A stretch of 64,000 nt of DNA from Dictyobacter arantiisoli (GTDB lineage: Bacteria; Chloroflexota; Ktedonobacteria; Ktedonobacterales; Ktedonobacteraceae), in the NCBI RefSeq assembly GCF_008326305.1, contig NZ_BIXY01000021.1, positions 1 to 64,000 of the forward strand. Reading direction: 5' to 3'. Below are positions 306-11,258 of this stretch, piece after piece. The translations under genes were made by a program, and so were the position numbers. Positions within the stretch are counted from its first letter, which is position 1, and every line of letters starts with the position of its first letter. The notes beneath the pieces are model-generated. The model was not told the origin of the DNA and searched no databases. It saw only the letters and a program-made list of their open reading frames with translations.

Positions 306-1220
306 TCAGCCCTGCTTAACGATGGCCTCCACCAGTTGGGCGTTGGATGGTGTTTTTTCAAAGAGTTGGATAACTTGTTCTGAGGCATCACGGCGGGGAA
401 TATCGGCCATACGACGGCGTACAATGGACATAGCTTGTAACTCGGTGGGCGTCAATAAGCGTTCTTCCTGGCGAGTGCTCGATACCGTCACATCAATCGC
501 TGGAAAGATACGGCGATCAGCCATCTCGCGTGAGAGACGCACTTCAAGGTTGCCGGTTCCTTTAAATTCTTCATAGACAACCTCATCAAGACGGCTGCCT
601 GTTTCGACCAGGCAACTGGCTACAATAGTCAGGCTGCCTCCTTCTTCAAGGGTACGGGCCGATCCAAAGACGCGGCGGCCAATTTCCAGCGCATGTGCGT
701 CGATGCCGCCTGAGAGTGTACGGCTGCTATGACCACCACGCTGATTGCGTGACCACATATCGCTATTCAGATTGTGGGCACGGGCCAGACGTGTCAAAGA
801 GTCGAGCAATATCACAACGTCGCGTCCTTGTTCAACCTCACGCTTTGCATCATGGAGGGCCTGTTCAACGATGATGCCGTGTTTTGAGGATTGCTGATCA
901 AAGCTTGAAGCGTAAAGTCGTACTTGAGGACCACGTACCTCTGTTCGCCAGTCTGTAACCTCTTCTGGCCGTTCATCGACCAGGCAAAGGTACAGGCGTA
1001 CCTCAGGAAAGTTTTGCTGTATGGCTCCTGCGATCTGGCGCAAAATCGTCGTTTTTCCAGCCTGGGGAGGAGCAACAATCAGCGCGCGCTGCCCGAAGCC
1101 GAGGGGAACCAGAAGATCAACGATGCGTGATGCGATTGGTTGCTTCCCGGTTTCTAATGTAATACGACGATTTGGGTGGATCGGAGTGAGCTTCTCAAAT
1201 GGAGTATGTGTAGATGCCAC
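306..1220 (-). CDS. Short Rho-type transcription termination ATPase lacking the RNA-binding N-terminus
   Basis: The 304 residues cover the hexameric helicase half of transcription terminator Rho. They start at the linker ([12 protein letters not shown]) and contain Walker A (APPQAGKTT), the DERPEEVTD motif, Walker B ([12 protein letters not shown]), and the EEFKGTGN and FPAID signatures. E. coli Rho has about 419 residues; the N-terminal helix bundle and cold-shock-like primary RNA-binding domain are missing here. The start is a GTG preceded by AGGAG, and an in-frame TGA lies two codons upstream (1224-1226), so the missing part cannot simply be a misplaced start. The Lys two residues before the Walker GKT in E. 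coli (PPKAGKT) is Gln here. The gene sits 36 bp downstream of a P-loop kinase gene and is probably cotranscribed with it. It may be a specialised paralogue rather than the cell's main Rho. Confidence 0.88.
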
Positions 1221-1256: not shown

Positions 1257-2039
1257 TTACTCATACTGTACCACATCCGTCAAACTTGTGGGAGCTTCTA
1301 CCTCGCTCAAAAGTATTTGTCCCTCATGGATCGGACAGGATGTGGCGTGTTGTTGATATGGAATCGCGGACACTGGATGGGCTGTGTAACTGCTTAGAGA
1401 CTGGCCCGCACTGTGTTGATCTCTGGCAAGAATCTCTTGCAGAAAGTTTTCGAGTTGTTCCTGGAATTTGTAGTGTGTTTCTGTATTATTAATAATACGC
1501 ACATGTTGCTCTTGAATGCCATAACTGCTTAGCAGGCGATAGAGCAGCAAGGGATCGTACTCTTGCTGGTAGTAGCTACGTAGCATGGCTTCAGAGATAA
1601 AATGATCGTTTCTGGTCGTGGGATGATAGGCGCGGTTGTGAACTCGCCTGACGCAGGTGTCCAGATCAGCGTTGAGGAAGAGAAAATAGGCATTGCGTAA
1701 AAATGAGCACTGGAATTGTTGCAGGGCTTGAATATAATCGTCGCGCGCAAACTCCAATAATACTAATTTGCGAGGATGTGCACTATAAATACGCGCTTCA
1801 TATTCAATTGCATGTAGTGCTGTATCTAATACTGAAAAATCCAGCACGTCAAAACCACCATAGCCAGTAGGTTTGAATTTTATCTGTTGTGTATCAGCCT
1901 CAAATTGAGACCGTAAAAAAGGATAGTCATTAATATGGATCGTAGACCAGCCCTGCTGCTGGCTCAGGAGATGAAGATAATGGGCAGCCGTTGATTTCCC
2001 TGAACCGGGACGGCCTAATAAGAACAGAGTCATTGCCAT
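1257..2039 (-). CDS. P-loop nucleotide-kinase-like protein, module copy A
   Basis: This is a small P-loop NTPase with Walker A LGRPGSGKST near the N-terminus, like adenylate, cytidylate and shikimate kinases. A conserved YGGFDVLD patch and LEFARDDY strand follow, then an NADLDTCVRRV segment resembling Walker B and LID regions of small-molecule kinases. About 60 C-terminal residues are low-complexity and absent from its paralogue at 5712-6389. The ATG at 2039 is preferred over the GTG at 2066 because GGGAGA lies 9 bases before it. The substrate is unknown. It sits 258 bp downstream of the MerR-GAF regulator and 36 bp before the short rho gene. The paired gene order in both module copies suggests it acts with the regulator and sigma-like gene. 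Confidence 0.75.
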   Translation of the reverse strand: MAMTLFLLGRPGSGKSTAAHYLHLLSQQQGWSTIHINDYPFLRSQFEADTQQIKFKPTGYGGFDVLDFSVLDTALHAIEYEARIYSAHPRKLVLLEFARDDYIQALQQFQCSFLRNAYFLFLNADLDTCVRRVHNRAYHPTTRNDHFISEAMLRSYYQQEYDPLLLYRLLSSYGIQEQHVRIINNTETHYKFQEQLENFLQEILARDQHSAGQSLSSYTAHPVSAIPYQQHATSCPIHEGQILLSEVEAPTSLTDVVQYE

Positions 2040-2297
2040 GGACGATACTCTCCCATCTGCGATCACCTCTTACTCTAATCCTCTAACATAACTATAAATA
2101 ATGTAATGAATAAGTTTATCTATGTTGGCGTGAGCCAGGGAAGGAGGAGGTGCTGCTATCGGTAATTGATATTAATATACACGTAACGTGCGCATGGCAA
2201 GTGTAGTAACAGAATAGAACTTTGTGCAGGTTTCTGACTTTCTATCAAAAAATACTTGAAGCAGTAGTAAGGATGTTGGATAGAATCGCCATAGAGG

Positions 2298-4427
2298 TTA
2301 TTTGTGTTTTAATGGTGACCAGCGAATAAAATTGCGCTGGTCATAATCCCAGGTGACCACAACATTGCCACCCTCGATCTGGCCTTTAACCAGTGCGACA
2401 TCCAGAGCTGAAGTAATAATCGAACGCACTTCGGGTAATGCATATTCGGGGATATGCTCACGGAGAATCTCAGCTAGCTTGGGATATTCATAGGCAGTGA
2501 TGCCCAGACGAATGCTGACATCAGTCATTTCCACCACGCTCTCAGTACGGATCTGTTGTTCTGCATAGACGCGCAGGGCATCTAATTTATAGGGACCCAT
2601 GGCACCCATACGCAGGCGTTCAGCATGTTCGCGTGCCTGCTCGAGTGAAGTATTTTTCAAGAGAATAAAGAAGCGATCAGCATAGATATGGTAGAGTTGA
2701 CAATCGGGATATTCTCTGAAAAAGGTCCGAATCTGTTCCTGTACGCGCAAGCCTACCTCACGCGTCAGATTGCGGGCCAGGCGATCCCCGTATTTGTGAG
2801 CCAGGCTATTATATTTGTCAATGTCCAGCGCGATAAACGAGAGCACCTTATCTCCCTGTGGCTCGTCCGGGGATTGTCTTGTGGCAAGAGTTTGAATCTG
2901 CTGCAGGATGGCTTCTACATCCCTGTTAAAGTCATTTTCTGAGCCAAAGTTTTCAAATAGAGCATCCACTACTTCTGGGTTTTTAAGTATTTCTGTGAGG
3001 TGTCGAGTAGATTGTTTACGAATAGTGTAGGTTTTAAGCAGTTCTTCGATCATACGAGCTAGAATCCGTAACAGCCGTTGATCGTGTTGTGTAAAGGCAT
3101 CCTGGAAGTGGGAGGCAACATAGAGCACGCCCAGCGGTACACCATCCTCGCCCGAGAGCGGCATTGCCAGGGCTGAACGCAACGGTATGTCGAGATCACG
3201 TACCATGGATTGAGCATCAGTTGTTGGGATATTTGGCTCATAAAGGATATGGCGGCTCTGTAAGGCCCGGATGTAGAGATAGTTAGCATGTTTGTCCAGG
3301 GCGGTGAAGGCTGATTTCGTGGGTGAACTGGCAGCTTGATTATGTGCTCTCAGCGTGAGATTGCTCATCGTAGCGGGTTGCGATGCCGTACGTGGGAGCA
3401 AGATCCAGCAAAAGCGCCAGCGAGCCTCTCCTGATGCGTTATGTCCCCCCAGATGGACTATCATATCGGCCAGCCCATTTAAAATCGCATCATCATGATT
3501 CATACTGGTATAGAAATCCGTTGCGGAATCGCTAGTATCGCGCATACCAGTTCCCAGGCAGGCGCGTGTCAGAGTTACCTCTTCATAGAGGGGATTGAGG
3601 AGATTGCATACGGTCTCTACCACCTCGCTGCTCAGGGTAAGAGGACTCATCTCGCGCTGTAAGATGATCATTGTCTTATTGGCTGCCTGATTGGCCCGGG
3701 TGGAAGCACTCCGCATAGCTTGCAGGGCTTCCACCCGGAAGTCCGAGCTATATTGGAACCAGGGCCGGGTCGTCAGGAGTGCATGTGAGGTTCCATGCTG
3801 GCTCAACCAGCCGACTAACGATTCGCCCAGCGTTTCCACATCCTCAACGCGTTGAATCCTATCGCTGGTGGTGGTCGGTGAGAGGGGTAAAATCAAGCCA
3901 GCCGTCGTATTCAAAAAATCCTCGCATATCAGCTTTAAAGCCATATGCAACACATGCGACACAAAATAGTTCCAGAAAACGGTGGTCCGTGCCTGGGCAA
4001 TCCGTTGATTGATCGAAGGTTCGGTAGTCGGAGTATGGAGATAGTGATTTAATATTTGTTCTGCATGTTCGTTTGTCTGCACGGCATCTCTAGGGGTTCG
4101 GATCGCATGCCAGAGCTTATAGATGTCGGTGGGAATATCGTTGGCTGCATAGCCTGCATTGATCAGTTCGCGGATAATCGCCAGTTTATCGAGTTCGGTA
4201 GGAGTATAGAGTCGGCGCCCTTTGGGACCGCCGGGGCGCAAAGGATGAAGAATGCCATATTCTTCCCAATCGCGTAACTTATTTTCGGTAATACCAAATA
4301 GCTCGGCCGCGCGACTGATGGTAACCGTAGCTTCATCACGCCCTCTATGGATATTCTGCAAAATACGTTCCTGGACATCTTCTTTTTGCAAATGTTCCTG
4401 TATTAATTGCTTGCTTCGCACATCCAT
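2298..4427 (-). CDS. MerR-type HTH / GAF / degenerate GGDEF regulator, module copy A
   Basis: About 709 residues. Residues 34-98 form a MerR-like winged helix (TISRAAELFG, then KLRDWEEYGIL and LYTPTELDKLAIIREL). A middle region of about 200 residues is unrecognised. A GAF-like domain (about 330-480) contains GVPLGVLYVASH. The C-terminal 170 residues look like a GGDEF fold (FIALDIDKYNSLAHKYGD), but the GG(D/E)EF site reads YADRF, so diguanylate cyclase activity is unlikely. No membrane segment is visible, so it should be cytoplasmic. The ATG at 4427 has GAGG five bases before it. It is divergent from the sigma-like gene at 4928 across a 500-bp region that holds a promoter and an inverted repeat. 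It could be a ligand-sensing activator of that divergent gene; this is inference. Confidence 0.8.
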   Translation of the reverse strand: MDVRSKQLIQEHLQKEDVQERILQNIHRGRDEATVTISRAAELFGITENKLRDWEEYGILHPLRPGGPKGRRLYTPTELDKLAIIRELINAGYAANDIPTDIYKLWHAIRTPRDAVQTNEHAEQILNHYLHTPTTEPSINQRIAQARTTVFWNYFVSHVLHMALKLICEDFLNTTAGLILPLSPTTTSDRIQRVEDVETLGESLVGWLSQHGTSHALLTTRPWFQYSSDFRVEALQAMRSASTRANQAANKTMIILQREMSPLTLSSEVVETVCNLLNPLYEEVTLTRACLGTGMRDTSDSATDFYTSMNHDDAILNGLADMIVHLGGHNASGEARWRFCWILLPRTASQPATMSNLTLRAHNQAASSPTKSAFTALDKHANYLYIRALQSRHILYEPNIPTTDAQSMVRDLDIPLRSALAMPLSGEDGVPLGVLYVASHFQDAFTQHDQRLLRILARMIEELLKTYTIRKQSTRHLTEILKNPEVVDALFENFGSENDFNRDVEAILQQIQTLATRQSPDEPQGDKVLSFIALDIDKYNSLAHKYGDRLARNLTREVGLRVQEQIRTFFREYPDCQLYHIYADRFFILLKNTSLEQAREHAERLRMGAMGPYKLDALRVYAEQQIRTESVVEMTDVSIRLGITAYEYPKLAEILREHIPEYALPEVRSIITSALDVALVKGQIEGGNVVVTWDYDQRNFIRWSPLKHK

Positions 4428-4656
4428 CTGCACCTCTCTAAAAGAGTGGAGAAAACTTGGGGCCGATGTAATACAAGTTCAATGGTATCATAATTGTATG
4501 AGTTTGTATAGGTGATTTTAAGACAAAGAGTCAGGTTTTTTATTAAAGAAACATAAAAATAATTTGTAATATCAGATTAATTTATGATAAATGCTTTGTG
4601 TGAGGAAAGTTCTGTGTGGTATGAGTGAATATACAGGTGGCGTGAGGAAACTTGTG

Positions 4657-4693
4657 GAAAGTTATCTCTTGCTCTTCTGTATAGATAACTTTC
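4657..4693. promoter_or_regulatory. Perfect 11-bp inverted repeat upstream of the sigma-like gene promoter
   Basis: GAAAGTTATCT (4657-4667) and its exact reverse complement AGATAACTTTC (4683-4693) are separated by 15 bases and end 10 bases before the -35 box. The position suits an activator operator, for example for the divergent MerR-like protein, though the spacing is not the classic MerR arrangement between -35 and -10. Confidence 0.5.
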
Positions 4694-4703
4694 TTGCATG
4701 GTA

Positions 4704-4732
4704 TTGACAAAAAATCTATCCTAAGGTACCAT
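4704..4732 (+). promoter_or_regulatory. Sigma-70-type promoter for sigma-like gene A
   Basis: TTGACA (4704-4709), a 17-base spacer and TACCAT (4727-4732). The -35 box is consensus and the -10 box weak, as expected for an activated promoter. It points to the gene at 4928. Confidence 0.55.
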
Positions 4733-4927
4733 TTACATAAAATAGAGTAATTTTCTTATGGATTGTGAACATTCTTGTGGGCACGCCTTCTAGAGGGAGG
4801 AAATTTGTCCCGGTACTGGACGTTGCAAGAGGCTATTAATTTCGTACATCGGAAAAGAGAGTAGTTTAGCAAAAGGTCGCCTGATTTTTTTACGCAAGAG
4901 CTAATAGTATTCCCAGGAGGATCTCTC

Positions 4928-5596
4928 ATGTTAGCAGATGCGACATCTACTCATTTTGATGAGTGCGATATGGTGCATGGGCAAAGCTGGTTCGATCTGT
5001 ACATCTGGTTATTACCACTGACAGAAATCTGGGTACGTGACGCACATGTCTCATCCTGGTATGGACAGCAGAAAGAGATTGCTGAGGATATCGCTCATGA
5101 GGCGGTATTGCGTACCTTTCGTTATCATCAACGCGCCTGTTGCGGCGAGCTGCCTCCCATCGGTTCACTGAAGGCGTTGAGCCGTGTGATTGCACGGAAT
5201 TATTTTCGCGATTGGCGTAAAAAAGATTGGTGTCTGGTGCGCTCGACGCAAGATGACAATGAGCAGCATTGCATTGATGGCAGCGTATTAAGTTTGGATG
5301 TGGTGGATGCGGCTCAAATTGCGCTGGACCATTTGATGCTCGATGCAATTATTGTCATGGTTGCCCGGGTCGTTGCCAGGTTTCCCCGGGGACAAAAGGC
5401 CGCTCTGCTGACGGATCTGGCTAATATGTCTGATCTGGATGGGGAGCCTACACTGCTCGAGCAAGCCTTGTCGGATGTGGGTGTACATTTGAGAGATTAC
5501 AGGCGTCCTCGCTCAGAGGATCCGACGATTCGTGGTCGCGATGCTGCCCTGCGCAGTATTGCTTATAAGCGTTTGAGGCATGAGGTTATTTTGTAA
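4928..5596 (+). CDS. ECF-like RNA polymerase sigma factor, module copy A
   Basis: A 222-residue protein with a sigma-70 region 2-like half: EIAEDIAHEAVLRTFRYH, then SLKALSRVIARNYFRDWRKK, resembling the DxxQExFLR and ARNxxxDxxRR motifs of ECF sigma factors. The C-terminal half (FPRGQKAALLTDLAN to RSIAYKRLR) sits where region 4 belongs but lacks an obvious helix-turn-helix. A strong AGGAGG lies before the ATG. It is divergent from the MerR-like gene and convergent with kinase gene B. Its paralogue is at 9185-9865, same length and layout. It could be a true sigma factor or a sigma-derived RNA polymerase-binding regulator. No anti-sigma gene is recognisable nearby. Confidence 0.65.
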   Translation: MLADATSTHFDECDMVHGQSWFDLYIWLLPLTEIWVRDAHVSSWYGQQKEIAEDIAHEAVLRTFRYHQRACCGELPPIGSLKALSRVIARNYFRDWRKKDWCLVRSTQDDNEQHCIDGSVLSLDVVDAAQIALDHLMLDAIIVMVARVVARFPRGQKAALLTDLANMSDLDGEPTLLEQALSDVGVHLRDYRRPRSEDPTIRGRDAALRSIAYKRLRHEVIL

Positions 5597-5635
5597 GCCT
5601 GTTGTATCAGGCAAGCTTGCCAGTAGAATTTTCCG

Positions 5636-5681
5636 ACGCCCTGCGAACAAGAGACTATACAGTCTTTTGTTACGCGGGCGT
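5636..5681. terminator. Bidirectional hairpin between convergent genes
   Basis: A 21-base imperfect stem (5636-5656 with 5661-5681) around a 4-base loop ATAC, between the ends of the rightward sigma-like gene and the leftward kinase gene B. The arms pair fully at ACGCCC/GGGCGT and at AACAA/TTGTT to the loop, with a short internal mismatch. The T-run after it is weak. Confidence 0.55.
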
Positions 5682-5711
5682 TTCGTTTCCTCGTTGAATT
5701 AATTTGCTTGC

Positions 5712-6389
5712 TTATGCATGAGTGAGCACTTTCTGGGGGATTATCGTTTGTTGAAATTCCCTTTGAAAGAGTTGCTTGGCAAAGTCCTCAATAATGTCTA
5801 AGAGAGCTTGTAAGTTCCCCGCGTTGCGGAAGGCTCGCACCTCTTTATAGATTTGTTGCTCGGATCGCAGGTGGGCGTTCATATGTGAGCACATATATAG
5901 CCAGTTGTCGTGATCATAGTAGGTTCGCATGATATAGTCCGACACGAAGTGGTTATTGGTTACCTCTGATGACTCTATGCGCTGATAGATACGATCAATG
6001 CATGTATCTAGATCGGCATCGACAAAGAAGACATAAGCATCCTGTAAAAAACCTGCGCTAAATTGTTGTAGCGCCTGCCAGTAGTCATTGCGAGCAAACT
6101 CAATTGTGACAATCCCATCTTGTTCCAGATTTGCCAGCGCCTGCACCTGTTGTTCCAGTATGTGAAGGGCCGTGTCAAAGACTGATAAATCTAACACATC
6201 AAAGCCTCCATAGGCCGTCGTGCGAAAGCGGATATGTCTGGTATCTTCCTGAGACATACGGTGTAGAATTCTATAGTCATCCATATGGAGAGCTGTAAAA
6301 TTACTCTGGCGTGCTAACTTGAGAAGATGATGAATTGCAGTTGTCTTGCCACTTCCGGGCCGCCCTAAAACGAATACCTTCACTAACAT
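5712..6389 (-). CDS. P-loop nucleotide-kinase-like protein, module copy B
   Basis: A 225-residue paralogue of the kinase-like protein at 1257-2039. Shared blocks in the same order are LGRPGSGK(S/T)T (Walker A, residues 8-17), a DTRHIRF element, YGGFDVLDLSVFDTALH, IEFARNDYWQALQQF, DADLDTCI, and HFVSDYIMRTYY. The ATG start is 38 bp downstream of the MerR-GAF regulator stop, so the two are very likely one operon, a tighter arrangement than in copy A. The fold suggests ATP-dependent phosphorylation of a small molecule or nucleotide, but the substrate is unknown. A zeta-toxin-like role was considered but nothing resembling an antitoxin is adjacent. Confidence 0.75.
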   Translation of the reverse strand: MLVKVFVLGRPGSGKTTAIHHLLKLARQSNFTALHMDDYRILHRMSQEDTRHIRFRTTAYGGFDVLDLSVFDTALHILEQQVQALANLEQDGIVTIEFARNDYWQALQQFSAGFLQDAYVFFVDADLDTCIDRIYQRIESSEVTNNHFVSDYIMRTYYDHDNWLYMCSHMNAHLRSEQQIYKEVRAFRNAGNLQALLDIIEDFAKQLFQREFQQTIIPQKVLTHA

Positions 6390-6427
6390 CAGTCACATTC
6401 CTCCATCTACCATCTGTGTTTTAGGAT

Positions 6428-8605
6428 CTATCTATTTTTTTGTTGTTCCTCCCCTGACTGATGCGGCGTATAGGTCTGGGTAATTGGGTCCCAGGCATAA
6501 ATGATATTTCCTCCGGTGTCCGTACCTAATTTGAGCGCAAACTCTAATGAATGGTAGAGCGTCGAGCGCACATCGGTCACCGACCGCATGTGGTGAGGGG
6601 CTAAAAACTCGGCGAGTTTGTCATAGGGATACCAGGTCACGCCCAGATGCACCGATATATCGGGCAGGGTCAGTGCCGCACCTGGCAGATCTGATTGTTT
6701 TACCGCGATACTGCCTTCCAGGGCTTTGCGCAGGCGTTCAGCATTGTTTTTCGTCCGTTCAAGAGTAAAGCCGCGTAGCAAGAGGCAGTAAATACCGCCA
6801 TAAATATGATATAACTGGCAGTTTAAATGATTTGAGAAGAGCGCAGGCAAAAGATCATGGATACGTAATCCAATGGCTTTATGTAAATGATGGAGCGTTT
6901 GATCTCCATAGCTATTCGCGATCAATTCCTGTACCATACTATCAATATCTATAGCGATAAAGGATATTTCCTTCACCGGCCCATCCATTTCCGTAGGGAT
7001 GGTCCACACCTGTTTATGGGTCACCTGTCCTTTAATCGTGTGTAAGATTTCCGCCAGATCCTGCAGAAAATCATGCTCGGAAGCAAAATCTTTAAAAAGA
7101 GGATCAACCGTACCAGGATCTTCTAGTAGATCAGCAATGGTATCCGAGATATGTTGTCGGATACTGTAAGTATGTAAGAGCTCTTCGCAGATCTTGCCAA
7201 TCATGCGCAGGATGCGTTGATCTTCTTCGCTGAAGGCGTCACGCTCATACGAGGTAACATACATGACCCCCAGAGGAAGTCCGGTCTCACCTCCAATAGG
7301 AACTGCTATGTTCGAATGAATCGGCCCCTCGATCTCACGATGGAGGGCCAGGATATCTTCACGGGCCAGCTCTGGCCGATAAATGATGTGGCTGCTCTGA
7401 TAGGCACGCAGGCTCAGGCTGGTCACATGGCGCTCGGGTGATACAGAGGTAACCCCGATAGTATGGCGCGCATGCTGGCTTTTCGCCCGGACGACCAGGC
7501 TGCGTTGTTGTAAAGGCACATTTGTGTTAGTAGGTAAGAAGATGCAGCAATCTTGCCAGCGCGTCTGCCCATCGGCGTTCTTACCACCCAGGCGAATCGT
7601 CATGTTTGTCAGACCGGTCAGAACGGCATCGGTCAGTTTGGGTGTGAAATCCATGCCAGGAGCGATAATATCCTGCATACCTTCGCCTATATAGTGATGC
7701 CAGTGCATTTGCTCTTCATAGAGTGGTTCTAGCAGTCGCAACACAGTGCGCACTGCTTTTTCATTGTGGCGAACATGTTGAATCTCATCACGTTGTACTA
7801 CAATCAACGTCCGCGTTGCCAGTGAAGCTGGTAGTTGCATACGTAGCTCAGGAGGGCATAAGGGTAGTACAATATAATCGCTGGGATATTCAAACAATGG
7901 TTCGGGGGTCAGAAACGTAAAAAACGCCCGTGTCTGACCGAGCCAGCCGATTAATGATTCTCCAAGCGTGCGTAAGTTGGCAGGGTCCAGCGACGGCTCA
8001 TCGGGACGATAATCGTGCGCGGGCAGAATCAGGCCTGCATAAAAGCCTGGGATATCTTCATAGATCAGCAACAGCGCCAGCCAGAGCACACGCGAGGCAT
8101 AGACGCGCCAGGGTAACGACTCGCGGTAGGCGATAGTAACACGCTTATTGATATGCTCGGTTTGTGTTGCTAGATCGCCAGGAATATCCGATGGAAGCGT
8201 ATAATCCGTTTCCTCTTCGAAAATCTGTTGTGAGGTATTCAACGGTGATGCCAGTGCCGACCAGATTTCATCAATATTGGGAGGGATAGCCCCTGGTGTC
8301 AGATGAGCCTCATCAAGCAGCTCGCGAATAATCGCGAGTTTATCCAGTTCTGTAAATGAATACTGGCGCTGGCCCGTAACTTGCCTTGCGTCAGTGCCTT
8401 CCCTTGGGCGTATCGGCTTAATCAACCCCATCTTCTCCCAATCACGTAGCTGGCTTTCGCTAAAGCCAAACAAGCGCGATGCCCGTCCTATTGTAACAGT
8501 GACCTCGTTGCGGCCTCTCTGGATGTTATGGTAAACACGTCGTTGCGCGACCTCATCTTTGAGGTGCCTGGCAATCCGTTGTAGGTTGCGCTCATCCATC
8601 GCCAT
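6428..8605 (-). CDS. MerR-type HTH / GAF / degenerate GGDEF regulator, module copy B
   Basis: A 725-residue paralogue of the protein at 2298-4427. The MerR-like helix-turn-helix (about 37-105) contains TVTIGRASRLFGF, QLRDWEKMGLI and FTELDKLAIIRELL. The GAF-like domain contains GLPLGVMYVTSYERDAF. The C-terminal domain has the GGDEF-type strand FIAIDIDSM, but the active-site loop reads YGGIY (against YADRF in copy A), so the catalytic acidic residue is lost. The linker CQLYHIY before the loop is identical in both copies. The ATG at 8605 follows GAGGAAAT; an ATG at 8599 is also possible. Kinase gene B follows 38 bp downstream, and sigma-like gene B is divergent. It is probably a cytoplasmic sensor-regulator; the ligand is unknown. 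Confidence 0.8.
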   Translation of the reverse strand: MAMDERNLQRIARHLKDEVAQRRVYHNIQRGRNEVTVTIGRASRLFGFSESQLRDWEKMGLIKPIRPREGTDARQVTGQRQYSFTELDKLAIIRELLDEAHLTPGAIPPNIDEIWSALASPLNTSQQIFEEETDYTLPSDIPGDLATQTEHINKRVTIAYRESLPWRVYASRVLWLALLLIYEDIPGFYAGLILPAHDYRPDEPSLDPANLRTLGESLIGWLGQTRAFFTFLTPEPLFEYPSDYIVLPLCPPELRMQLPASLATRTLIVVQRDEIQHVRHNEKAVRTVLRLLEPLYEEQMHWHHYIGEGMQDIIAPGMDFTPKLTDAVLTGLTNMTIRLGGKNADGQTRWQDCCIFLPTNTNVPLQQRSLVVRAKSQHARHTIGVTSVSPERHVTSLSLRAYQSSHIIYRPELAREDILALHREIEGPIHSNIAVPIGGETGLPLGVMYVTSYERDAFSEEDQRILRMIGKICEELLHTYSIRQHISDTIADLLEDPGTVDPLFKDFASEHDFLQDLAEILHTIKGQVTHKQVWTIPTEMDGPVKEISFIAIDIDSMVQELIANSYGDQTLHHLHKAIGLRIHDLLPALFSNHLNCQLYHIYGGIYCLLLRGFTLERTKNNAERLRKALEGSIAVKQSDLPGAALTLPDISVHLGVTWYPYDKLAEFLAPHHMRSVTDVRSTLYHSLEFALKLGTDTGGNIIYAWDPITQTYTPHQSGEEQQKNR

Positions 8606-9184
8606 ATTTCCTCAAAAAAAATACAGGGGTTCTAAAAACCCGCGTATTTCCGAATACCCGCCTATAATAACACACGCTTTAATAGCTTGTACACCTGTAT
8701 ATGACGTTTTGGCAATTGGTAGATTAAAAAAACTCTTGCTCTGCATGGAAAAGCTAATAGTGGGTGTGATCTTCTTTCCTATAGATAGGACGTTCTTGCT
8801 CAGATTTTTTAACTATGTGTCTGTTTTGTACCGGTACGATGGTGAGGAATGTTGATAGCACGGTAAGGATTCATGAGCGAATGTGATTTTTCGTATGCTT
8901 GTATACTTATAGTTATTAAGATTTTTGGTGAATTGCCTTAAAAACATCAGCCAACCCTAAGAAAACATTGAATTACTAACTCTAGTATGCTATAAAATCT
9001 ATTAGGATAAGTGAAAGTCCAAGAACGGTGTGAAGTGTTCTATGAGAAAATTTGCTAGTGTGCTAAATATAGACGTGAGAGAGAATATCTTATCTGGTAG
9101 AGAAGAGCGAGCAAAGCATTTGAGCAGGTTATTTAGCAGATAAGTTGTTCTGCGGAAGCCTGACTTTCCTGGAGGTTACGACTC
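8606..9184. other. Divergent control region, module copy B
   Basis: A 579-bp AT-rich region between the MerR-like and sigma-like genes of copy B. It holds a rightward promoter (8968-8996) and a short inverted repeat TCCTAT-AG-ATAGGA (8777-8790). Beside that repeat is a TATAGATA...TTCTTGC string also present in the copy A region. No convincing gene is seen in it. Confidence 0.5.
8968..8996 (+). promoter_or_regulatory. Sigma-70-type promoter for sigma-like gene B
   Basis: TTGAAT (8968-8973), a 17-base spacer and TATAAA (8991-8996), about 190 nt before the start of the sigma-like gene. The leader length is nearly the same as in copy A, which supports both calls. Confidence 0.55.
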
Positions 9185-9865
9185 ATGGCTGTCTATCGAC
9201 CGGTGGTACAGACGAATGATCGCCAGACGGTGAGCGATCGTGTATGGGGCGAATTATATAAGACCTTGCGCCCCTATATTCTTGGATGGGTATATTCCTC
9301 TGGTGTTACTTCCTGGCATGGCCAGGAGCTTGATATCGCTGATGATATATTGCAAGAAGCTGTGATTCGCACAATGAAGTATACGCGACTGGCAGAAAGT
9401 GGGGGGGGATTACCTATTCATTCAATGACCTGTTTTGGGCGGACCGTGGCGCATAATCATTTTCGTGATCTGCGTCGGCGTGAATTACGCCTGATTCGCC
9501 CTTCTTCACAGGATGGAGAGTTCTCCTATTTGCTGGCCAATGGTGATGACGTTGATCCTTCGGAGGTGGCTCTGGATAGCCTGATGCGCATCTCTGTACT
9601 TATGACTCTGGCTCGAATTATTATCGATTTTCCAGCCAAACAACGGACTGCATTGTTAATTGATCTAGCTAATCATAGTGATCTTTCTGGTGAGAGCGGC
9701 CCTTTGCAAACGGCCTTTGCCGCTGTTGGTATTGATTTGCGGGAATATCTTCGCTCGCTTTCGAATGATCCTCTTGAAAGAAGCCGCCATGCAGCTTCCT
9801 TAAGTATGGCCTATAAGCGTTTGCGTCAAACATTTCAAGTCAAGGATGATGATCTGACCTGGTAG
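9185..9865 (+). CDS. ECF-like RNA polymerase sigma factor, module copy B
   Basis: A 226-residue paralogue of the protein at 4928-5596. Region 2-like motifs are DIADDILQEAVIRTMKY and FGRTVAHNHFRDLRRRELRL. The C-terminal part repeats the pattern of copy A (FPAKQRTALLIDLANHSDL, DLREYLRSL, SLSMAYKRLR) without a clear region 4 helix-turn-helix. TGGAGG lies 9 bases before the ATG. No ECF-specific anti-sigma factor or zinc-binding partner is adjacent; the neighbours are the MerR-GAF regulator and kinase. The duplicated context suggests that regulator and sigma-like protein form one control circuit. Confidence 0.65.
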   Translation: MAVYRPVVQTNDRQTVSDRVWGELYKTLRPYILGWVYSSGVTSWHGQELDIADDILQEAVIRTMKYTRLAESGGGLPIHSMTCFGRTVAHNHFRDLRRRELRLIRPSSQDGEFSYLLANGDDVDPSEVALDSLMRISVLMTLARIIIDFPAKQRTALLIDLANHSDLSGESGPLQTAFAAVGIDLREYLRSLSNDPLERSRHAASLSMAYKRLRQTFQVKDDDLTW

Positions 9866-9941: not shown

Positions 9942-10079
9942 ACGATTTCTATTTGTTTTGTTCTTTGAGAATAAACAAAGTGCTATTTACTAACATGAGA
10001 TAAGCATGATACAATGGCGGAAGCCTTCCTCACCGTGCCTATGCCCGAATATAGATCCACTACAAAGGATAGTTACTCT

Positions 10080-11258
10080 ATGTCACAAATGTCTACATAC
10101 GCCCAGGATTATCTTCCCTATTTTCATCGCTATCAAGATGAGTATTTCCAACGCCTGGAGTCACTGGTCAATATTGATTCAGGGACCGGTCAGGTTGAGG
10201 GGATTAATCGCGTTATGGATTATCTTCTGCAGTGGTTGGTTGAAGCCGGTTTCGTGGTTGAATTGCATCCTAGTGCGGGTTTTGGCAATAATCTGGTGGC
10301 GCGCCGGCAGGGGAAAGGGACGGTCCGTATGCTCCTGGTGGGCCATGTGGATACTGTCTATCCTGCTGGTGCGGTCCAGGCTCAACCGTTCGCGATCAAG
10401 GATGGGGTGGTTTCCGGTCCCGGAGTGCTGGATATGAAATCGGGGGTGTTGCTGGCGGTGTATGTGGTGCGTGCATTGCTGGCGGCGGGATTTGAGCAGT
10501 ATAAAGAGCTGGTGCTGGTCTTTAATAATGATGAAGAGGTGGGTTCGCGGGGCAGTATTCCATTGTTGCGTGAGATTGCGCGCGATATTGATTATGCATT
10601 GGTATTAGAACCAGCCGGGAAACCTGGTTCGTTAACCCATTCGCGCAAGGGCACGGATAAATATGTGTTGGAAGTGCATGGCATTGCGGCGCATTCAGGT
10701 GCTGAACCGTTTAAGGGGCGGTCAGCCGTGGTTGAGCTGGCGCATAAGATACTTGCGATCCAGAACCTGCATGCCATGTTCCCCGGCGTCACTTTCAATG
10801 TGACCAATTTAAGTAGTAATGAGCCCTTGAATGTGGTACCGGATATGGCTCGCTGTTCGATTTCTGTGCGCTCATTCTATGCGCATGGTCTGGACGTTGC
10901 TGCGGCTGCTCTGGAGAAGATTGCTGGCAGTAGTAGCGTACCTGATACACGTAGCACGCTACTACGTACCACAGGCCGTCCACCCTATCAGCCTACTCCC
11001 GAAGTATTGCGTCTGGTGGAACTGGCAGAGATGGAGGCGCTGACCCTGGGGGTACAACTCAAGGCGGAGCCAAAAGGTGGTGTGTCGGACGCCAACATCT
11101 TGATTGACGCTGGCGTGCCGACATTGGATACCCTGGGTCCTGTTGGAGGCGGGATGCACAATCTGGAGCGTGAGCATATGCTGGTCGATTCGATGCCCAT
11201 CCGTGGTGCGCTCGTGGCAGGATTGCTTCAGCACATCTGCCTCTCCGATCATGCCTGA
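10080..11258 (+). CDS. M20-family metallopeptidase (glutamate carboxypeptidase-like)
   Basis: About 392 residues of the M20 zinc peptidase family (carboxypeptidase G2/ArgE/DapE type). Metal and catalytic motifs are in order: VGHVDTVYP (His ligand and Asp), GPGVLDMKSG (bridging Asp), NNDEEVGSRGS (catalytic Glu pair), LVLEPAG, and GGGMHNLE (C-terminal His). The dimerisation domain begins at RKGTDKYVLEVHG, with AHSG. There is no signal peptide, so it is probably cytoplasmic. The ATG at 10080 has AAAGGAT upstream; an upstream in-frame ATG at 10014 would add 22 residues but has a poor ribosome site. It likely cleaves a C-terminal amino acid or deacylates an amino acid; exact substrate cannot be told. 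Confidence 0.88.
   Translation: MSQMSTYAQDYLPYFHRYQDEYFQRLESLVNIDSGTGQVEGINRVMDYLLQWLVEAGFVVELHPSAGFGNNLVARRQGKGTVRMLLVGHVDTVYPAGAVQAQPFAIKDGVVSGPGVLDMKSGVLLAVYVVRALLAAGFEQYKELVLVFNNDEEVGSRGSIPLLREIARDIDYALVLEPAGKPGSLTHSRKGTDKYVLEVHGIAAHSGAEPFKGRSAVVELAHKILAIQNLHAMFPGVTFNVTNLSSNEPLNVVPDMARCSISVRSFYAHGLDVAAAALEKIAGSSSVPDTRSTLLRTTGRPPYQPTPEVLRLVELAEMEALTLGVQLKAEPKGGVSDANILIDAGVPTLDTLGPVGGGMHNLEREHMLVDSMPIRGALVAGLLQHICLSDHA

Follow-up and report, generated by a model that had tools for sequence, protein, structure and literature searches.

Organization of the Locus

The analyzed window is a stretch of 64,000 nucleotides from Dictyobacter arantiisoli (contig NZ_BIXY01000021.1), and a check of its open reading frames recovered two paralogous kinase-regulator-sigma blocks within positions 1257-9865, with all six ORFs at the place, in the order and on the strand described in the first-pass annotation. 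Block 1 consists of kin1 (1257-2066, minus strand), encoding a P-loop kinase with AAA_33/AAA_18 and NMP-kinase-like profile matches; reg1 (2298-4433, minus strand), encoding a MerR-GAF-GAF-degenerate GGDEF regulator in which the Pfam models MerR_1, GAF_2 and GGDEF score above their cut-offs; and sig1 (4928-5596, plus strand), encoding an ECF-like sigma factor and divergent from reg1. The true start of kin1 is probably the internal Met10 at about position 2039 rather than the annotated start. Block 2 repeats this layout with the P-loop kinase gene kin2 (5712-6389, minus strand), located 38 bp 3' of the regulator gene reg2 (6428-8605, minus strand), and the ECF-like sigma factor gene sig2 (9185-9865, plus strand), which is divergent from reg2. 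The motifs GRPGSGK, YGGFDVLD, LDKLAIIREL, CQLYHIY and AYKRLR were all confirmed to be present. The coordinates given earlier hold for the genes of the trio, but not as limits of the locus, since the conserved neighborhood reaches beyond them to a truncated Rho gene (306-1220) and an M20 peptidase gene (10014-11258). An Rfam scan of the first 12 kb of the window returned no match.

Promoter-like sites facing in both directions were found in both intergenic regions and recur at corresponding places in relatives; single-sequence promoter matches are no commoner than in shuffled DNA, and the support for these sites lies in their conservation. The predicted sig1 promoter (4704-4732, plus strand; TTGACA-17-TACCAT) is a consensus match only, with two matches in the region vs. 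2.0 expected by chance, and has corresponding TTGACA sites in the intergenic alignments of relatives. On the opposite strand, the predicted reg1 promoter (4482-4510, minus strand; TATACA-17-TACCAT) lies where relatives have TATACA-17-TACTAT. For block 2, we predict a sig2 promoter (8968-8996, plus strand; TTGAAT-17-TATAAA) that is conserved in Dictyobacter and a reg2 promoter (8664-8693, minus strand; TGTACA-18-TATTAT), whose -35 element is overlapped by a 34-bp conserved island in the sig2-reg2 intergenic region (8682-8715). This island, in which at least 20 of 25 columns are identical across four genomes vs. a region mean of 8.8, is a candidate operator; no palindromic operator common to the clades was found by k-mer counting and alignment of the intergenic regions. 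In a scan that covered spacers of 16-18 bp, the best promoter-like sites have spacers of 17-18 bp, vs. 19-20 bp in classical MerR activation, and thus give no indication of the classical long-spacer mechanism. A short hairpin and a T-run after it (8614-8641, minus strand) immediately precede the reg2 ribosome-binding site, and visual inspection showed a similar layout in three further genomes of Dictyobacter; the element is a possible attenuator with a weak stem.

Domain Architecture of the Encoded Proteins

All 19 of 19 regulators carry a MerR domain (PF13411, best E-value 1.4e-14), for which the closest PDB relatives by sequence are TnrA/GlnR. The AlphaFold model of Reg2 (mean pLDDT 81), from which the domains of this protein were assigned, comprises a MerR domain (residues ~35-107), two GAF-like domains (GAF-A, ~152-306; GAF-B, ~327-480), and a GGDEF-like domain (~510-715), where the α/β domain at ~152-306 is read as a first GAF domain missed by Pfam. 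The MerR-GAF-degenerate GGDEF make-up proposed in the first-pass annotation was therefore recovered, with the number of GAF domains revised from one to two. A Foldseek search with the regulator model retrieved GGDEF cyclases, tandem-GAF phosphodiesterases and phytochrome-linked cyclases, and the GGDEF fold aligned to YfiN with a target TM-score of 0.81. The GG[DE]EF motif is absent from every readable aligned regulator copy; its position is taken by pentapeptides such as YADRF (including Reg1), YGGRF, SADRF, YGGIY and similar, in which arginine or another residue stands at the position of the catalytic glutamate. No RxxD I-site was found upstream of the degenerate motif in the aligned copies, and the DxD region is mostly conserved. 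Because both the cyclase motif and the I-site are lost, the GGDEF domain is expected to serve as a receptor or dimerization domain rather than as an enzyme. The regulators gave no match to a cobalamin domain, and their sensor part consists of GAF-GAF-GGDEF.

Neither Sig1 nor Sig2 has a significant Pfam match. Within the wider family, the Sigma70_r2 model is matched by 13 of 26 members (best E-value 1e-8), and the family profile finds the ECF sigma factors SigL (E-value 9e-5), SigE and SigW in PDB, whereas region-4 models are matched by none of the 26, leaving the C-terminal half unrecognized. The AlphaFold model of Sig2 (pLDDT 77, pTM 0.50) has ECF sigma factors as all 10 of its 10 best PDB matches in Foldseek, with probabilities of 0.20-0.95, E-values of 0.017-0.56 and low TM-scores, and these alignments run over both domains, including the C-terminal half. 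The sigma-type identity put forward previously is thus in line with the structural matches over region 2. The helix ending in AYKRLR stands where the recognition helix of an ECF sigma factor would be, which suggests that recognition of the -35 element by the sigma-like protein may be altered. No anti-sigma factor was identified next to the sigma genes of the module.

Judged from its conserved motifs and profile scores, the kinase is an intact P-loop kinase of the small-molecule type that falls into no named family. A Walker A motif GRPGSGK[ST], an invariant Asp-Tyr after it, an EFAR motif, and two arginines in the lid-like region are kept in nearly all 35 kinases, therefore the enzyme is probably active. 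Its best profile matches are to AAA_33 and UMP-CMP/adenylate kinase; however, it reaches none of the NCBIfam kinase cut-offs, scoring 27 bits with UMP_CMP_kin_fam vs. a cut-off of 208. Kin2 also passes the Pfam cut-off for Zeta_toxin (25.3 vs. 22.3 bits), with the match confined to the Walker A region (residues 5-48). Elsewhere in the phylum, two distant kinase relatives (L201:5978-6916 and L202:6355-7101) occur as single genes with no regulator or sigma gene beside them. They carry GRPASGKSE and GRPACGKSE, respectively, together with EFSRG motifs, have at most sub-threshold AAA_33 matches and no NCBIfam match, and are members of an uncharacterized kinase family; the motifs GRPxxGK and EF[AS]R are common to them and the module kinases.

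Duplication of the Gene Block

The products of the two blocks form three diverged pairs of paralogs, as had been noted from the sequence, with alignments far beyond chance: 39% protein identity over 212 aa for Kin1 and Kin2 (E-value 2e-54), 38% over 716 aa for Reg1 and Reg2 (E-value 3e-153), and 43% over 198 aa for Sig1 and Sig2 (E-value 6e-46). At the DNA level, the two blocks can be aligned in just two short stretches, which argues against a recent copying of the block. In the regulator tree, 12 Rho-side copies (from Dictyobacter, strain brp13, Tengunoibacter, Ktedonobacter, Ktedonospora, Thermosporothrix, and two MAGs) form one clade with an SH-aLRT support of 95, and exactly the same 12 rows stand on one side of a branch in the sigma tree (support 90). 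The kinase tree does not recover this set, yet does not reject it (p-AU 0.435). The identical clade in the regulator and sigma trees implies that the module was duplicated as a block, in agreement with the earlier suggestion that the trio was kept together through duplication, with which the kinase tree is compatible. The simplest reading of the trees would be a single whole-block duplication predating the Dictyobacter-Ktedonobacter split, after which the single-copy genera each lost one of the two copies. Several branches are long, thus the deeper placements are unsafe. Inheritance of the module in Ktedonobacteraceae is vertical, and the two copies in the window are old paralogs.

Distribution and Genomic Context

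In a scan of named genomes, relatives of the regulator are confined to Ktedonobacterales, with representatives in Dictyobacter, Tengunoibacter, Ktedonobacter, Ktedonospora, Ktedonosporobacter, Thermosporothrix, and Thermogemmatispora; neither the regulator nor the sigma-like protein was found outside the order in a sample of 400 genomes of the phylum. Among 47 genomes of the class, the regulator is present in 26, the sigma-like protein in 25, and the kinase in 24, all 24 of which also encode the regulator; moreover, every kinase match in the class lies within the locus of this module. The module was found in 23 of the 29 Ktedonobacteraceae genomes. The sigma gene is divergent and upstream of the regulator gene in all 34 mapped loci of the family (one sigma gene being broken and one cut by a contig end), at a distance of 284-692 bp, or 1147 bp in D. 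vulcani, measured to what is left of the broken gene. The kinase gene is located downstream of the regulator gene in 32 of the 34 loci, a count that includes two kinases missed by the ORF map (in T. aurantia and, at a contig edge, in HOG45); it is missing from the second Ktedonospora copy and from a copy in genome G014 whose regulator is broken. This G014 regulator, the middle of the regulator copies in that genome (L101:12707-14809), is split by a stop, has no kinase, and resembles a decaying third copy. In D. vulcani (G001, C1:1711566-1712483), sig2 is fragmented, next to undamaged reg2 and kin2 genes. Three genomes (G012, G013, G017) have a doubled kinase gene, and G030, from another family of the same order, encodes the regulator and the kinase without the sigma gene in an unrelated neighborhood.

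The sigma-like proteins are more widely scattered: ten paralogs are located elsewhere in the genomes of the class, and further matches in G005, G007 and on contig C533 of G014 lie at contig ends, adjoining the M20 peptidase and ABC transporter genes that usually flank the module. Five of the ten orphans (L119, L121, L122, L123, L126) are divergent, at 223-406 bp, from genes for WD40-repeat proteins of ~1,200 aa, in which N-terminal HTH-like and NTPase-like segments were read by eye. Another orphan (L117:7445-11187) is directly upstream of a gene for a TIR-nSTAND1 protein. The repeated location of this sigma family opposite large sensor-like proteins fits the idea of a relay from a sensor to a sigma factor.

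The trio thus recurs through Ktedonobacteraceae in the same order and orientation. The first-pass proposal that its members form one working unit is favored by this recurrence and by the block duplication, but is weakened by the absent or broken sigma or kinase genes in G030, Ktedonospora, and D. vulcani and by the ten sigma genes located elsewhere. The usual gene order is M20 peptidase, one or more modules, truncated Rho, zinc-ribbon protein, pyrimidine-nucleoside phosphorylase (PyNP), and Ser/Thr kinase, where the names of all neighbors other than Rho and the M20 peptidase were read from sequence. In G013, an intact trio is on one contig, and the truncated Rho, zinc-ribbon, and PyNP genes are on another, an arrangement that argues against mere stasis of the neighborhood.

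The truncated Rho paralog in the window (306-1220, minus strand) is a protein of 304 aa that matches positions 124-413 only of the Rho model and is without the N-terminal RNA-binding part; two full-length Rho genes (446 and 428 aa) are present elsewhere in the same genome. The paralog is 74-90% identical to the other members of its group and adjoins the module in 16 of the 18 genomes that have it. Its closest relatives, in family f4 of the order, are proteins of ~950-1,040 aa whose N-termini are long and of low complexity. We considered the truncated Rho as a further member of the unit and rejected it: Thermogemmatispora has the trio without Rho, and Rho occurs with no adjacent trio in G013 and on the partial contig of G022.

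Proposed Function and Alternative Explanations

We propose that the regulator is a one-component sensor, in which a MerR DNA-binding domain is joined to a GAF pair and a catalytically dead GGDEF domain. Most likely, it binds between the divergent regulator and sigma genes and controls the expression of both, which are apparently transcribed from housekeeping-type promoters. A ligand or a redox signal at the GAF-GAF-GGDEF part would switch on the sigma gene, and the ECF-like sigma factor would direct RNA polymerase to a regulon. The kinase gene is probably co-transcribed with the regulator gene, and its product would most likely phosphorylate a signal-related small molecule or nucleotide, either making or clearing the ligand. 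We have moderate confidence in the relay from the MerR regulator to the sigma factor; that the kinase acts on the ligand pool of the sensor is a more tentative suggestion. The reading as a whole, i.e., a MerR sensor controlling a divergent ECF-like sigma gene, with a linked kinase acting on the sensor's ligand pool, seems to us about evenly poised between right and wrong. A more elaborate version, which we put forward as speculative and rather unlikely in its full form, is a new type of switch from a signal to a sigma factor. Here, the kinase would produce or eliminate a phosphorylated nucleotide-like ligand sensed by the GAF and dead GGDEF domains of the MerR regulator, which would control an ECF-like sigma factor with a rebuilt promoter-recognition domain, and the two copies, kept since before Dictyobacter and Ktedonobacter diverged, would act as independent channels in a mycelial lineage that forms spores.

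The three genes may instead share no pathway and be adjacent simply owing to infrequent rearrangement in this part of the chromosome. Such stasis would account for the equally conserved M20 peptidase, ABC transporter, zinc-ribbon, PyNP, and Ser/Thr kinase flanks, and is compatible with the orphan sigma paralogs and the missing sigma gene of G030; however, the block was duplicated as a unit and has kept its layout at ~40% protein identity, the trio of G013 stays together with its usual neighbors on another contig, the regulator and kinase of G030 are still paired amid unrelated genes, and kinases of the module family are never found apart in the class, which makes the explanation improbable. 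Doubtful, too, is the possibility that the sigma-like protein derives from a sigma factor but now acts as another kind of regulator, e.g., by competing for core RNA polymerase or simply as a DNA-binding partner. The failure of region-4 models in 26 members of which 13 match region 2, the modest Foldseek statistics (E-values of 0.017 and above, low TM-scores), and the lack of significant Pfam matches for the copies in the window point in this direction, while the uniform ECF identity of the ten best PDB matches, aligned over both domains, and the retrieval of SigL, SigE, and SigW by sequence profile speak for a sigma factor.

Two further explanations concern the other proteins of the trio. We regard a toxin-antitoxin or defense module built around a zeta-toxin-like kinase as very unlikely: the Zeta_toxin score of Kin2 that suggests it comes from the Walker A region only, the AAA_33 and NMP-kinase profiles give matches that are no worse, PADLOC gives weak generic matches only, the recurring gene order includes no antitoxin-like partner, and the module has a fixed chromosomal place and vertical inheritance, unlike a mobile island. 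A module that switches c-di-GMP synthesis through a regulator with diguanylate cyclase activity is hardly credible, given that no aligned copy has GG[DE]EF, the catalytic glutamate is replaced and the upstream I-site is missing, even though the YfiN-like fold is recovered and the DxD region is largely kept.

Comparison With Known Systems

Ktedonobacteria are a mycelial, spore-forming branch of Chloroflexota, and almost nothing is described of their regulation in the open-access papers searched. The prevalence of the module in the family and the retention of two copies across genera make it a good candidate for an important switch, and it would unite a dead GGDEF domain, an ECF-like sigma factor with an unrecognized region 4, and an uncharacterized kinase family in one testable unit. 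Open-access papers on Ktedonobacter sigma, ECF, or GGDEF proteins or on MerR-GGDEF-ECF combinations yielded no description of it, and the module, which is restricted to one lineage, is apparently undescribed.

Each component has recognizable relatives. The MerR domain of the regulator is related to those of TnrA and GlnR; these two proteins are short and have neither GAF nor GGDEF domains, whereas both domain types are attached in the module. The C-terminal two thirds of the regulator resemble, in fold and domain order, GAF-GGDEF and phytochrome-type diguanylate cyclases and degenerate GGDEF effectors; it differs from those cyclases by the loss of the catalytic motif and the I-site in every readable copy and by the fused MerR domain. 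The sigma-like protein shares region 2 and a two-domain helical layout with the ECF (group 4) sigma factors SigL, SigH, SigE, and SigW, but has an unrecognized region 4 and no identified adjacent anti-sigma factor. The kinase is similar to AAA_33 and UMP-CMP kinase-like P-loop kinases in its Walker A motif, the Asp-Tyr after it, the EFAR motif and the two arginines of the lid-like region, while falling below every NCBIfam cut-off.

For the arrangement as a whole, the closest parallel is in Streptomyces coelicolor, where the MerR-family regulator LitR, which senses light via adenosyl-B12, controls the ECF sigma gene litS and its own gene (PMC5401885). The first-pass view that no described system has this make-up therefore stands for the trio, for which we found no counterpart in the open-access literature, but not for the pairing of a MerR regulator with an ECF sigma factor as such. 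In both systems, a MerR regulator is paired with an ECF sigma gene as its output, here in divergent orientation at all mapped family loci; the control is demonstrated for LitR/LitS and inferred for the Ktedonobacteraceae module. By this analogy, the module would work most like a LitR/LitS-type relay from a MerR regulator to an ECF sigma factor, differing in its GAF-GAF-GGDEF sensor, in which no cobalamin domain was matched, in the strongly diverged C-terminal half of its sigma factor, and in its added P-loop kinase.
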